The translations under genes and the position numbers were made by a program. Below, one piece after another: positions 57,786 through 63,051 of a stretch of DNA of 64,000 nt (its first letter is position 1; each line of letters begins with the position of its first letter). Source of the stretch: Ardenticatenaceae bacterium (GTDB lineage Bacteria; Chloroflexota; Anaerolineae; Promineifilales; Promineifilaceae). The stretch lies in contig JASJCR010000013.1 of NCBI GenBank assembly GCA_030065875.1, positions 17,645 through 81,644 of the forward strand, in the 5' to 3' direction. The notes below the pieces were generated by a model. That model did no database searches. It was not told the origin of the DNA and saw nothing but the letters and a program-made list of their open reading frames with translations.

Positions 57786-57866
57786 TCGTCAATTGTCAAT
57801 AATTAATGTTCAATTGTCAATTGGGGTGGTATTGATAATTGATTGTTGCCAATTGACTATTGATTA
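57780..57866. repeat. 'CAATTGTCAAT' microrepeat array
   Basis: Words 'caattgtcaataattaatgt' and 'caattgactattgattattg' alternate between the two genes. Relatives occur at 38535-38590, 38800-38845 and 60090-60125. Confidence 0.7.
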
Positions 57867-58381
57867 TTGTCTCTCGCTTTTTCTTTTTGCTGGGCCAGGT
57901 CAGCCTCCATCCGCGCCCGCTTGTGCTCGCTGGTTGCTCCCAGGGCGTTGCGTACTTTGTCGAGAACGGCCGCTTCCTTTTCGCTAACCTTTTCGCCGAT
58001 GCCAAGCACCTTTTCGCTGGCTGCCTCTGCAGTTGTTTGGCCAATCGCTACCAAAAAGTCGCGCACATCCTCACCTTCTGCCCGGCCAACTTTTTTCTTG
58101 AGGAGGTCATTTATTTTGGCCAAATTGCGAATTGCGTCATCTAGCCTGGTTTTCTTAATGTTGGTGGGAATATCCACGGTGTTGGCGATGATCGCCTGGA
58201 CCAACTCGCAGCGGCTTTCATACGTTTGCACGGCCGCCTGATATCCTTTTAGCTCTTTGACGTTGCGCAGGGTGGCTTTTTCCTGACGGGTGTCCGCCGC
58301 GCTAACGGCCGCGTAAACCCACGACGGGGCATTTTTGATTAATTCCCACTCTCTTTTTGAAAATGTTGATGCATTTGCCAT
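57857..58381 (-). CDS. Uncharacterised helical protein
   Basis: This ~174-residue cytoplasmic, lysine/glutamate-rich protein has no signal peptide ('STFSKREWELIKNAPSWVYAAVSAADTRQ'), a central helix bundle and a charged C-terminal helix ('KRARMEADLAQQKEKARDN'). I do not recognise a family. ATG 58381 is better spaced from 'aggag' than the track's ATG. It lies between the IDO-like gene and the TspO-like gene, all on the minus strand but with large gaps. Confidence 0.75.
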   Translation of the reverse strand: MANASTFSKREWELIKNAPSWVYAAVSAADTRQEKATLRNVKELKGYQAAVQTYESRCELVQAIIANTVDIPTNIKKTRLDDAIRNLAKINDLLKKKVGRAEGEDVRDFLVAIGQTTAEAASEKVLGIGEKVSEKEAAVLDKVRNALGATSEHKRARMEADLAQQKEKARDNNQ

Positions 58382-58535
58382 GTAACTCATTCTCCTGATT
58401 GTGCATCAGCCAGCTGATAATTTTTTCTAAACCATCATACCAAGAAATACGCCAGGAGGACACGTAAAAACATGAGAAAAAACGGCCAGAGTTAATACTC
58501 TCGCCGTTCTTGATGATTGGTAGCCCACTGTTGCC

Positions 58536-59306
58536 TTATTGATTTGTACCAACCGTTGGCGAGGGTGCAAAAAATGGCTGGGCAAGACCCCAGAGCAGCG
58601 CACCGCTGGCCAGCAGCGTGGCGATCAGGATCGGAACCGCGCCCGGATCGACGGCTACAATTCCCCAAAACGCCCAGATTAGAACGAGGCCAAAGATGTT
58701 TGCCCGGTATTGACGAATCAAGAACCAGCCAATGGTGGCGGCGGTCAGAATCAGGGCCCCACCCCATACGGAGGCCGGTAAGCCAAACCCGACCCAGCCA
58801 ATGCTGACCAACCACTGGCTGATATTGACGATGGTAGCCACCGTGGTCCAGCCAAAAAAGAGAATGATTGGGGCACGAACGATCCAGTTAAATCCGCGAT
58901 CAGCTGTTGGTTCAAAGCTAACCAATGTCTTGAAGGCAAAAAAGAGGGAAACCAAGAGAGCTAAAATGGCCAAAACACTGCTTCCAATCGGGGTAAAAGC
59001 GGTAGCGGTGTTGCTGAGAAAAGCGGCCGTGATGGGCAGCCCCAGGGCATCCAAACGCTTGTCGGCGCGTTTGCTGGGTAGGGCCTGATAAACGATGAAA
59101 ATGATGACGCCCAGGAAAATTGGCAGCCAGACGGTAAATGTATAGGGAGCCGGTGAGACTGCGGTAGGGTACATGTCGTACATGGTTGCCCCACCGGCTT
59201 CAGGGCCGCTGCCGTCAAATCCGCGATTGCCGCTCAGAAAGAAATTGGCGTATACCATGATGATGCCGCTCAGGGCAACTAAAATTTGTCTCACTAAACC
59301 TTTCAT
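58536..59306 (-). CDS. TspO/MBR-like (tryptophan-rich sensory protein-like) membrane protein
   Basis: The 256-residue protein has about seven hydrophobic segments. 'PAPYTFTVWLPIFLGVIIFIVYQAL' resembles the TspO 'PxxxxxxVWxxlY' loop and helix, and 'RAPIILFFGWTTVATIVNIS' fits the later Trp/Asn-rich helix. It is longer than classic TspO (~160), so it is a distant relative and the call is moderate. ATG has 'aggag' upstream. Just upstream sits an operator shared with the TetR gene promoter. Confidence 0.6.
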   Translation of the reverse strand: MKGLVRQILVALSGIIMVYANFFLSGNRGFDGSGPEAGGATMYDMYPTAVSPAPYTFTVWLPIFLGVIIFIVYQALPSKRADKRLDALGLPITAAFLSNTATAFTPIGSSVLAILALLVSLFFAFKTLVSFEPTADRGFNWIVRAPIILFFGWTTVATIVNISQWLVSIGWVGFGLPASVWGGALILTAATIGWFLIRQYRANIFGLVLIWAFWGIVAVDPGAVPILIATLLASGALLWGLAQPFFAPSPTVGTNQ

Positions 59307-59324
59307 GTTGAATCTCCTATTTTA

Positions 59325-59353
59325 AAAACTACCTTCTGGACGGTAGGTTTTTG
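59325..59353. promoter_or_regulatory. TetR operator upstream of TspO-like gene
   Basis: The inverted repeat 'ctaccttctggacggtagg' (59329-59347), flanked by 'aaaa' and 'tttt', is the reverse complement of the motif at 59954-59972, with three internal differences only. Confidence 0.8.
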
Positions 59354-59371
59354 ATTTAAAAAAATATCTCT

Positions 59372-59947
59372 CTACATCAACCCTTCAAGAAAAAGGGTGA
59401 CGAGTTTGTTCGGGAAATCAGATTGGGAGACATATTGTTCAACAACCCCCATTTCACCCATCAAACTCAAAAACATCCACGTACTCAATTCGCTGTCATG
59501 CGGTTTTAATTCTCCTGATTCAATCCCTCCTTCAATTACCTGTTTGACTTTCATAAACTGTCCCTGCACAAATAGGTTTCCCAGGTGAGCCTGCTGCCCT
59601 TCAGACAAAAAGCGAAGCGAATCACTCATGACGTGTGATACCTCGCTGCTTTCAGCCAGGTTAAATTTGAGCAGGGCCTGAAGCTTTTCACGAACGTTTG
59701 CTCCAGCCAAAATCGCCTGTTGATACCCGGCCGCATGATGATTAATCATCCCTTCGAGCATCTCACCAACCAGCTGTTCTTTGCCGTTGGGGAAGTGATG
59801 ATACAGGCTGGCCTTGCGGATACCAACGCGGTCAGCCAGTTGATTCATGCTAACGCCGTTGTATCCAAACTCCTGAATGAGCCGGGCCATCATGTCAAGC
59901 GCGTTTTGGCGCGTATTTCGAGCATTTTCTGCCAGTGGTCTAGCCAT
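59372..59947 (-). CDS. TetR/AcrR-family repressor
   Basis: The 191-residue protein has an N-terminal TetR helix-turn-helix ('FGYNGVSMNQLADRVGIRKASLYHHFPNGKEQLVGEML') and a ligand-binding C-terminal domain ('SHVMSDSLRFLSEGQQAHLGNLFVQGQF') like AcrR/YxaF types. Operators directly before its own start and before the downstream TspO-like gene match each other, so it probably represses itself and that gene. The ligand is unknown. Confidence 0.9.
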   Translation of the reverse strand: MARPLAENARNTRQNALDMMARLIQEFGYNGVSMNQLADRVGIRKASLYHHFPNGKEQLVGEMLEGMINHHAAGYQQAILAGANVREKLQALLKFNLAESSEVSHVMSDSLRFLSEGQQAHLGNLFVQGQFMKVKQVIEGGIESGELKPHDSELSTWMFLSLMGEMGVVEQYVSQSDFPNKLVTLFLEGLM

Positions 59948-59948
59948 A

Positions 59949-59974
59949 AAAAACCTACCGTATGGAAGGTAGAT
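59949..59974. promoter_or_regulatory. TetR operator upstream of its own gene
   Basis: 'cctaccgtatggaaggtag' (59954-59972) sits 6 bases before the ATG of the TetR gene, with 'aaaaaa' on the left and 'att' on the right. It matches the reverse complement of the copy at 59329-59347. Confidence 0.8.
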
Positions 59975-60131
59975 TAATCGATTTGTTGATTCCTGTCAAC
60001 CCCGCTAATAAAAAGTAAATAGATAGGACAGTTTGCTTATCTCGCTCACACCCGAGTGCTTGATCTGTATCGCTGAAGGCTTTATGCTTACGGCTAATTG
60101 CTAATTGCTAATTGCTAATTGCCAACTCATT

Positions 60132-60878
60132 ATGATTAATCTGCTCATCGTTGAAGATAACCCCCGCTTACGGCCGGCTATTGTGGCCGGATTTCAAAAT
60201 TTACCCTCGGTAAAGGTCTTGGAGGCATTTGACACCGGAGAAAAGGCGCTGGCCTACTGTTTTGATGGCGAATCGCCACCCGATGTCATTTTGATGGACG
60301 TTCAGCTGGCGGGAAAAATGAACGGAATTGAGGCCGCGGTCGCCATACGTCGAGAGTACCCTCGCCTGCCGGTCGTTTTTTATTCGATTCAGGATGATGA
60401 TGATTACTACCGCTCATTTTTGCGAGCGGGTATCCTGAGCCATTACGCATACGTCAAAAAATCAAACTATTTGCTGCCCGAGATGATCGTGCCGCTGCTG
60501 CAAGACGCCATCGCCGGCCGCAGCTTTATCGATCCGGAAATAGAATCTCGCGTGCAGGAGGTGCGCGTCAAGGATGCCAATGATCCCATGAGCCTGCTCG
60601 AACCAAATGAACAGGAAGTGGCCCAGATGGTTGCTCAGGGCATGAGCAATCTACAAATTGCCGGCCGGATGGGGTTTCGCGATAAGCGCACCATCAGCCG
60701 CATCAACGGCCAAATCTACACCGCCTGGGGATTAAATGAAACGACGACAGATGAAAAAGTAGCCCGAACCCGAGCCACGATCATTGTCAACTGCGGCCGT
60801 TTGCTCACCTGGGATGAACAGGGACGGCCATATGCTCTTGACGATCGGGGCACCTGGGTTTCGTGGGACGGCCGGTAA
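60132..60878 (+). CDS. Response regulator of two-component system
   Basis: This ~248-residue protein has an N-terminal receiver with phospho-acceptor Asp56 ('VILMDVQLAG'), the acidic pocket 'VEDN' and a lysine in 'YVKKSN'. The C-terminal region 'LEPNEQEVAQMVAQGMSNLQIAGRMGFRDKRTISRINGQIYTAWGL' is a LuxR/GerE-like HTH, though divergent. The ATG at 60132 is used, and the track start is in microrepeat sequence 'ttgctaattgctaattgcta'. It is paired with the kinase 16 bases downstream. Confidence 0.88.
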   Translation: MINLLIVEDNPRLRPAIVAGFQNLPSVKVLEAFDTGEKALAYCFDGESPPDVILMDVQLAGKMNGIEAAVAIRREYPRLPVVFYSIQDDDDYYRSFLRAGILSHYAYVKKSNYLLPEMIVPLLQDAIAGRSFIDPEIESRVQEVRVKDANDPMSLLEPNEQEVAQMVAQGMSNLQIAGRMGFRDKRTISRINGQIYTAWGLNETTTDEKVARTRATIIVNCGRLLTWDEQGRPYALDDRGTWVSWDGR

Positions 60879-60894: not shown

Positions 60895-63051
60895 ATGAGC
60901 CATAGCGTCTTTCTCAATTGGGCAGCCATCACATTGTCAATTTTTAACACCATTCTGCTGTTGTGGCTGGGCTTAACCGTGCTGCTCAATGCTGAACGAC
61001 GGGTCGTTGGGGTGTGGATCACCGGATCTGGATTAATTGTAGCGGCCGCATTTTTTATCAGTCACACGATTATTCTGCAGCGCGGTTTGTCTTATCCCGA
61101 TTGGCAATTTGCCTTTTGGTGGAAGGGAGCCGTACTGCCGGCCAATTTTTTGCCCTTTGCCTGGTACGTCGTCATGTTGTGGTATGCCGGTTACTGGCAG
61201 GAAGCTCAATCTCAGCTGGTTCGCCGGCACCGCTGGTGGTTTCGCCTGATCTCCCTGACGATGTTATTTGGCATGCTGATGCTCATTGTCATCCCCTCTC
61301 AACCAGCCAGCCCTTATGGTGATCGCTTCCTGGATATAATTGCACCGGGCAGCGCCTGGGCCCGGCCGTTTTTGATTTTCCTGGTGGTGGGGTTTTCCGG
61401 CTACATTACCCTGACCATGTTTCTGTCACTTGATGTCCTGCGCCATCCAGGTCCGGCTTCCCGCTTGATGGGAGACGTGGCTCGCCAGCGGGCTAAACCG
61501 TGGTTGATGGCCACCACCTTCGCCCTGCTGCTGGTAACGCTTCTGGTTACCTGGACCCTTTTATGGATATCACGCAATTTGCTTGAGGGGAATGTTTTTC
61601 TGTGGCAGCCGCAAACGTACGATACCCTAGCCCGCTTTGATTTGTGGATCGTAATCGTGCTGACGGCCGCGATTGTTTTATTGGGCCAGGCGACGGTGGC
61701 TTATGAGATTTTCACCGGGAAGAGCCTGCCCCGTTTTGGTCTGCGTCGTCAATGGTGGCGCGTGCTGAGTCTGGGGGTTATGTACAGCCTGGTGGCCAGC
61801 GGATTAATTGTGTTTGAATTCCCGCGGGTGCACGGCATTTTACTGCTGACGATTTTGACCACTGTTTTTGTGGCGCTCCTCGGCTGGCGTTCTTATGAGG
61901 AGAGACAGGGCACCATTGCAAGTTTGAGGCATTTTGTCAACAGCGAGCGGCTCTACGACCGGCTTCTTTCAGACAGCAGCGGCCGATCCGCCGATATTCG
62001 CCCTTCTTTTGTGGCTTTGTGCCGCGATGTTCTGGAAACCTCAGTGGCCTTTTTGATCCCGGTTGGACCCCTGGCCACCCTGGTCAATGAGCGGTACAGC
62101 TGGCCTACTCAAAAAAACCCTCCGGCCGTTGACTCTTTAATCGCCCGCAACCCTAAACCTGATGAAATTAGCATTCCCCTTGAGCCTGATGTGTGGGAGA
62201 GAGCTCGCTGGGGAATTCCTTTGTGGAATCAGCGTGGATTAATCGGGTTTTTGCTGTTGGGGGATAAGCTGGGTGGCGGATTGTATACGGAAGAGGAAAT
62301 TGAGGTGGCTCGCTCGAGTGGAGAACAGCTGATCGATCATCTGGCGACCAGCGAAATTGCGGCTCGCTTAATGACCCTGCAGCGCGAGCGCATGGTTGAA
62401 AGCCAGCTTCTCGATCAACAAACTCGTCGCATCCTCCATGATGACGTCCTGCCTCAGCTGCACACCGCCATGTTGACTTTGAGTGGTCCAAACGGCAAGC
62501 AGGAAGCGGTTTCTCTTTTGTCCGGCGCGCACAAACAGATATCAGATTTGCTGCACGCCATGCCGCGCACAGCCGCTCAGCCGGTGCAAAAATACGGGTT
62601 GGTAGAGGCGTTGGAAAGATTACTCCAAGAAGAGTTTACTCATGCCTTTGAGCGGGTAGATTGGCTGGTCGATGCGGCCGCACACAGGGCTTTTGATCAC
62701 CTAAACCCGTTGACGGCTGAAGTGACGTACTACGCCGCTCGGGAAGCGATTCGCAACGCGGCCAAATACGGCCGGGGTGTGGATGGGGAACGGCCGCTGG
62801 CGCTGACTTTGACGATGAAGGCCGGTCAGGAATTGATCTTTCAAATTCAAGATGACGGGGTTGGCGCGCAAAATCATCTGTTTGCCGGCCGTCAGGATCG
62901 CCATTCAGGCGGACACGGCTTAAATTTGCACTCCACCATGATGGCCGTGGTGGGGGGAGAGCTGGTGATTGATTCCCTTCCGGAAAAATATACTCGGGTG
63001 GAGCTCCGTTTGCCGCTTAAGGGACAGATAAATCAAGTGCCTGGATCTTAG
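60895..63051 (+). CDS. Membrane sensor histidine kinase (NarX/LytS-like HisKA_3)
   Basis: The 718-residue protein has about eight N-terminal membrane helices in residues 10-330, a GAF-like region and a HisKA_3-type box 'RRILHDDVLPQLHTAML' (phospho-His). The ATPase domain follows with 'EAIRNAAKYG' (N box) and 'QIQDDGVGA' (G1). It pairs with the LuxR-type regulator at 60132. The input signal is unknown, but a many-helix sensor suggests membrane-associated input. Confidence 0.9.
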   Translation: MSHSVFLNWAAITLSIFNTILLLWLGLTVLLNAERRVVGVWITGSGLIVAAAFFISHTIILQRGLSYPDWQFAFWWKGAVLPANFLPFAWYVVMLWYAGYWQEAQSQLVRRHRWWFRLISLTMLFGMLMLIVIPSQPASPYGDRFLDIIAPGSAWARPFLIFLVVGFSGYITLTMFLSLDVLRHPGPASRLMGDVARQRAKPWLMATTFALLLVTLLVTWTLLWISRNLLEGNVFLWQPQTYDTLARFDLWIVIVLTAAIVLLGQATVAYEIFTGKSLPRFGLRRQWWRVLSLGVMYSLVASGLIVFEFPRVHGILLLTILTTVFVALLGWRSYEERQGTIASLRHFVNSERLYDRLLSDSSGRSADIRPSFVALCRDVLETSVAFLIPVGPLATLVNERYSWPTQKNPPAVDSLIARNPKPDEISIPLEPDVWERARWGIPLWNQRGLIGFLLLGDKLGGGLYTEEEIEVARSSGEQLIDHLATSEIAARLMTLQRERMVESQLLDQQTRRILHDDVLPQLHTAMLTLSGPNGKQEAVSLLSGAHKQISDLLHAMPRTAAQPVQKYGLVEALERLLQEEFTHAFERVDWLVDAAAHRAFDHLNPLTAEVTYYAAREAIRNAAKYGRGVDGERPLALTLTMKAGQELIFQIQDDGVGAQNHLFAGRQDRHSGGHGLNLHSTMMAVVGGELVIDSLPEKYTRVELRLPLKGQINQVPGS

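Follow-up and report, generated by a model that had tools for sequence, protein, structure and literature searches.

Matching predicted operators before a TetR-family regulator gene and its TspO-like neighbour in an Ardenticatenaceae bacterium

The stretch of DNA analysed here (the window, 64,000 nucleotides) carries on its minus strand a gene for a TetR-family regulator of 191 amino acids (59372..59947) and, starting 65 bp behind its stop codon and in the same direction, a gene for a multi-helix membrane protein of 256 amino acids (58536..59306), which is called TspO-like and is the likely target of the regulator. The regulator contains the TetR_N helix-turn-helix domain (PF00440, E = 1.5e-12), with 47.5 bits against a cut-off of 24. 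Downstream of the TspO-like gene lies a gene for a 177-aa protein with no significant Pfam or NCBIfam match (57857-58390, −). On the other side of the regulator, and divergent from it, is a response regulator gene with a receiver domain and a weak GerE match (60132-60878, +), whose upstream region adjoins the first of the two sites described below; it is followed by a membrane histidine kinase-like gene (60895-63051, +).

The 19-mer CCTACCGTnnnGAAGGTAG occurs at two sites of the window, 59954-59972 (+) and 59329-59347 (−). The first, predicted operator 1, reads CCTACCGTATGGAAGGTAG on the plus strand and is located directly before the TetR start, at a distance of about 7 bp. The second, predicted operator 2, reads CTACCTTCTGGACGGTAGG on the plus strand, and its reverse complement, CCTACCGTCCAGAAGGTAG, lies about 23 bp before the start of the TspO-like gene, the Shine-Dalgarno AGGAG of which can be read directly from the sequence (59314..59318, −). 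The two sites are identical at 16 of 19 positions, the three mismatches (CCA/ATG) being all central. The first-pass annotation had described a 19-bp inverted repeat before both genes, present as reverse complements with three central differences, and this description holds to the base. As dyads both sites are imperfect: the outer 5-bp arms CTACC/GGTAG, which span 18 bp, are perfect while the centre is not, and the symmetric positions number 7/9 in one site and 6/9 in the other.

Operator 1 reaches into the promoter of the regulator. This promoter, TTGACA-17-TAATCT, was read directly from the minus strand (59971..59999, with the −35 at 59994-59999 and the −10 at 59971-59976), and the site overlaps its −10 by two bases. 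It was not listed by the automatic promoter scan because the −10 matches the consensus at only three of six positions. A palindromic operator at the own promoter is typical of the TetR family, if not strictly defining, and the dyad over the −10 corresponds to it. The window TetR has no close relative at E ≤ 1e-25 in 400 genomes of the phylum, nor in the sampled class, so paralogues were compared instead of an orthologous footprint. The same order, with a TTGAC-type −35 and a −10 separated by about 17 bp and followed by the dyad, is found in related TetRs of the genome and of the family, and most related TetRs have similar dyads at the equivalent promoter position: CTACCAAATTGTAGGTAG on contig C1, ACCAACCAAACTATTGGTTGGT on C63, ACCTAACGAACGTTAGGT on C159, CTACTAAGCGTTAGGTAG in genome G323 and CTACCGAACGAACGGTAG in genome G308. 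Recurrence of this layout is good evidence, at the level of sequence comparison, that the operator 1 dyad is an autoregulatory operator of TetR.

The earlier reading had placed the repeats at two promoters. Both sites do precede a gene, but a sigma-70 promoter is recognisable at the TetR gene only; the promoter scan found none before the TspO-like gene in the 65-bp gap. Between the TetR stop and operator 2 this gap contains a T-tract/A-tract, ATTTTTTTAAATCAAAAA (59348..59365, −). In five similar modules of the genome (the window gap and the equivalent gaps in L044, L148, L149 and L137) this place is occupied by a T7-T8 tract, in most cases with an A-tract behind it, which is absent behind the other TetR genes examined. 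The tract may serve as an upstream promoter element or have another role altogether.

The sites are rare. Within the window, a loose pattern allowing up to three mismatches finds these two places only, and the genome-wide motif search that the first-pass annotation had proposed returned the pattern without mismatch, in the whole 7.42-Mb genome, at the same two places only. The outer frame CTACC-N8-GGTAG is present at five places genome-wide, against 22 for the reversed control pattern. Three of the five are intergenic, namely both window sites and one that precedes the TetR gene on contig C1, and all three are at TetR/TspO-like pairs; the other two copies (C181 and C56) lie within coding sequence, as do all the weaker genome matches examined as further regulon members (C181, C3 and C56). 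When both gaps were dinucleotide-shuffled, a shared 18-mer at least as good arose in 8 of 500 shuffles, which makes the identity of the sites by itself only modestly unlikely by chance; one that was also palindromic arose in 0 of 500. With the upstream region trimmed, an equally good shared site was obtained in 2 of 400 shuffles.

At 6 of the 19 TetR loci of the genome, a dyad before the TetR gene has a matching partner in the gap that separates TetR from the next co-directional gene. The genes placed behind the regulator encode a TspO-like protein in the window and on C1, an ABC transporter ATPase on C63, a 194-aa protein with no Pfam match on C134, a DUF418 membrane protein on C194 and a Rce1-like CAAX protease on C78; operator 2 occupies the position of the second operators of the five other loci. 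In the comparison of all upstream regions with all downstream gaps, the best match fell on the diagonal in six of six cases. Operators that differ between loci and match within a locus would be expected of TetRs that each recognise the pair at their own locus. At L152, L153 and L041 the next gene overlaps the TetR stop, and there is neither a gap nor a second operator, as would be expected where a single promoter serves both genes. The repressor wiring is ordinary, yet this genome, to judge from its dyads, appears to have arrived at it six times or more, with another site on every occasion. Cross-talk is conceivable, since related TetRs have operators of a similar CTACC/GGTAG type, and one of the paralogues among the 19 TetR matches, rather than the local TetR, might then bind the window sites. 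This is extremely unlikely, as the operators are locus-specific, each upstream site being best matched by its own downstream site, and each TetR sits between its own pair. The proposal that TetR uses the repeats as operators and is linked through them to its neighbour finds support in the same-type operators at the same promoter position in related TetRs, in the locus-specific pairs that five other TetR loci have in the equivalent two places and in the lack of other intergenic copies genome-wide.

Inverted repeats can also be read as RNA hairpins, either a terminator or a leader element, rather than as protein-binding DNA sites. Both repeats are terminator-like by score, with T-runs, and the sequence ahead of the TetR start folds more stably than its shuffles (z = −3.75; for the gap, z = −1.79). 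With the promoter described above, however, the TetR transcript would begin inside the repeat and miss one of its arms. In C1 and C134 the DNA repeats are conserved, yet the equivalent gaps show no folding beyond that of shuffles (z = −0.09 and −0.29, respectively). Near-identity of the two repeats of a locus would be expected of sites read by a single DNA-binding protein but not of a pair of hairpins. The RNA-hairpin reading, with a folding signal that is inconsistent across gaps, was rejected as very improbable.

Since the same rare site stands before both start codons, TetR very probably controls both its own gene and the TspO-like gene. We propose that TetR represses itself and the TspO-like gene through both predicted operators and is released by an inducing small molecule, a model to which we assign a probability of about 0.88. 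In the model, a TetR dimer would bind both 18-19 bp operators. Operator 1 overlaps both the −10 and the position at which the TetR transcript is predicted to begin, and a dimer bound there would shut off the regulator's own promoter. At operator 2, in the 65-bp gap, the dimer would keep transcription out of the TspO-like gene, whether by acting on a local promoter that escaped recognition or by forming a roadblock to polymerase that reads through from the TetR promoter. Binding of a small-molecule ligand would then release the repressor. The comparisons support the interpretation of the locus as a probable autoregulated TetR with a dedicated neighbouring target, an arrangement of known kind.

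Gene orientation would direct attention elsewhere. In a survey of 372 streptomycete TetR regulators, 250 were divergent to a neighbour, 55 were likely co-transcribed, a class defined by a gap of at most 35 bp, and 67 were neither; short gaps favour regulation (PMC3511530). The response regulator gene, starting near 60132 (+), is divergent from TetR across an intergenic gap of about 184 bp, and by the divergent-neighbour rule it is the first guess, but the positions of the operators point to the TspO-like gene instead. That the operators are real but operator 1 mainly targets the response regulator gene seems improbable: operator 1 adjoins the TetR start and is about 160 bp from that of the response regulator, the second copy is in the other gap, and the five other TetR loci of the genome put their second operator before the co-directional downstream gene. 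The context rule, which takes in divergent genes and co-directional genes within 35 bp (PMC3511530), is silent on co-directional genes 65 bp apart. Matching operators flanking the regulator gene, as proposed for TetR and the TspO-like gene, fill this gap in the rule and make automatic scanning possible.

The TspO-like protein of the window has no match in Pfam, even at E = 10, and so falls below the gathering score of TspO_MBR (PF03073). It aligns with a family of proteins of about 260 aa that is common in the class: 91 of 298 genomes contain a match. Of the 28 relatives aligned, 17 match PF03073 at E up to 1, and one of these, L047, was shown to exceed the curated cut-off (26.1 versus 24). 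These matches cover the core of the profile, at residues ~43-165, and a Thermus relative is annotated as tryptophan-rich sensory protein. TspO has five helices, whereas the AF2 model of the window protein (pLDDT 88.8) predicts eight long ones. In a Foldseek comparison of this confident model with the PDB no match was obtained at E ≤ 0.001, and no TspO was among the 50 matches listed. Of the earlier label TspO-like, the distant homology stands, while a Pfam match of the protein itself and a structural match to solved TspO do not accompany it. The window protein may fairly be regarded, as a distant homologue, as a TspO relative with extra helices, and TspO function should not be transferred to it.

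In the trees, the window TetR falls outside a well-supported clade (100/99) of the other similar TetRs, the C1 TetR included, and the TspO-like protein of the window clusters with a protein from a planctomycete (100/99). The C1 TspO-like protein groups with two proteins of another family (100/98) that have no TetR in their neighbourhoods, and the C1 TetR has its closest relative in G272, where the gene that follows encodes an ABC ATPase. Given these separate placements and the G272 neighbour, the two pairs were probably assembled separately, although the trees from which we infer independent origins have long branches. Among about 120 TspO-like loci, several of which overlap and which were compared over flanks of ~1.5-2 kb, a directly adjacent TetR is present only in the two modules of this genome. 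A wider view, which we offer tentatively, is that the genome repeatedly sets membrane-protein genes, including two not closely related TspO-like ones, behind a TetR of their own, each time with a private pair of operators and with a T-tract in the gap that the modules have in common. On this view the TspO-like proteins would belong to small-molecule response circuits as inducible components, and the regulator cassette would have been assembled independently and swapped between targets. In L105 and L106, relatives of the C1 TspO-like protein (65% identity) adjoin, by eye, a molybdopterin-dependent-dehydrogenase-like gene, with no TetR.

The predicted circuit resembles TetR/tetA of Tn10, in which a dimeric TetR-family repressor acts through two palindromic operators on its own gene and on a single dedicated membrane-protein gene (PMC3511530). 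The Tn10 genes are divergent and have a common intergenic region, whereas the window genes are co-directional, with operators that flank the regulator gene at a distance of ~626 bp from each other, and the target is TspO-like and not a known efflux pump. Among solved structures, the nearest relatives of the window TetR are KstR2-like TetRs (PDB 2ibd and 4w1u), the top sequence matches, mainly in the DNA-binding half and at E of only ~1e-11. KstR2 targets cholesterol catabolism, genes of which were not seen adjacent to the window TetR. In the literature searched no TetR-TspO circuit was described. A dedicated ligand-responsive repressor, if true, would be a route to the ligand of TspO-like proteins, and the locus gains interest from the existence of six parallel modules, each with its private operator pair, and of two TspO-like pairings that appear to be independent. 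At L155, in genome G308, the gene immediately behind the related TetR gene (1495-2079, −), whose operator is CTACCGAACGAACGGTAG, encodes a squalene/phytoene synthase (PF00494), a neighbour that hints at isoprenoid-related targets in this TetR clade.
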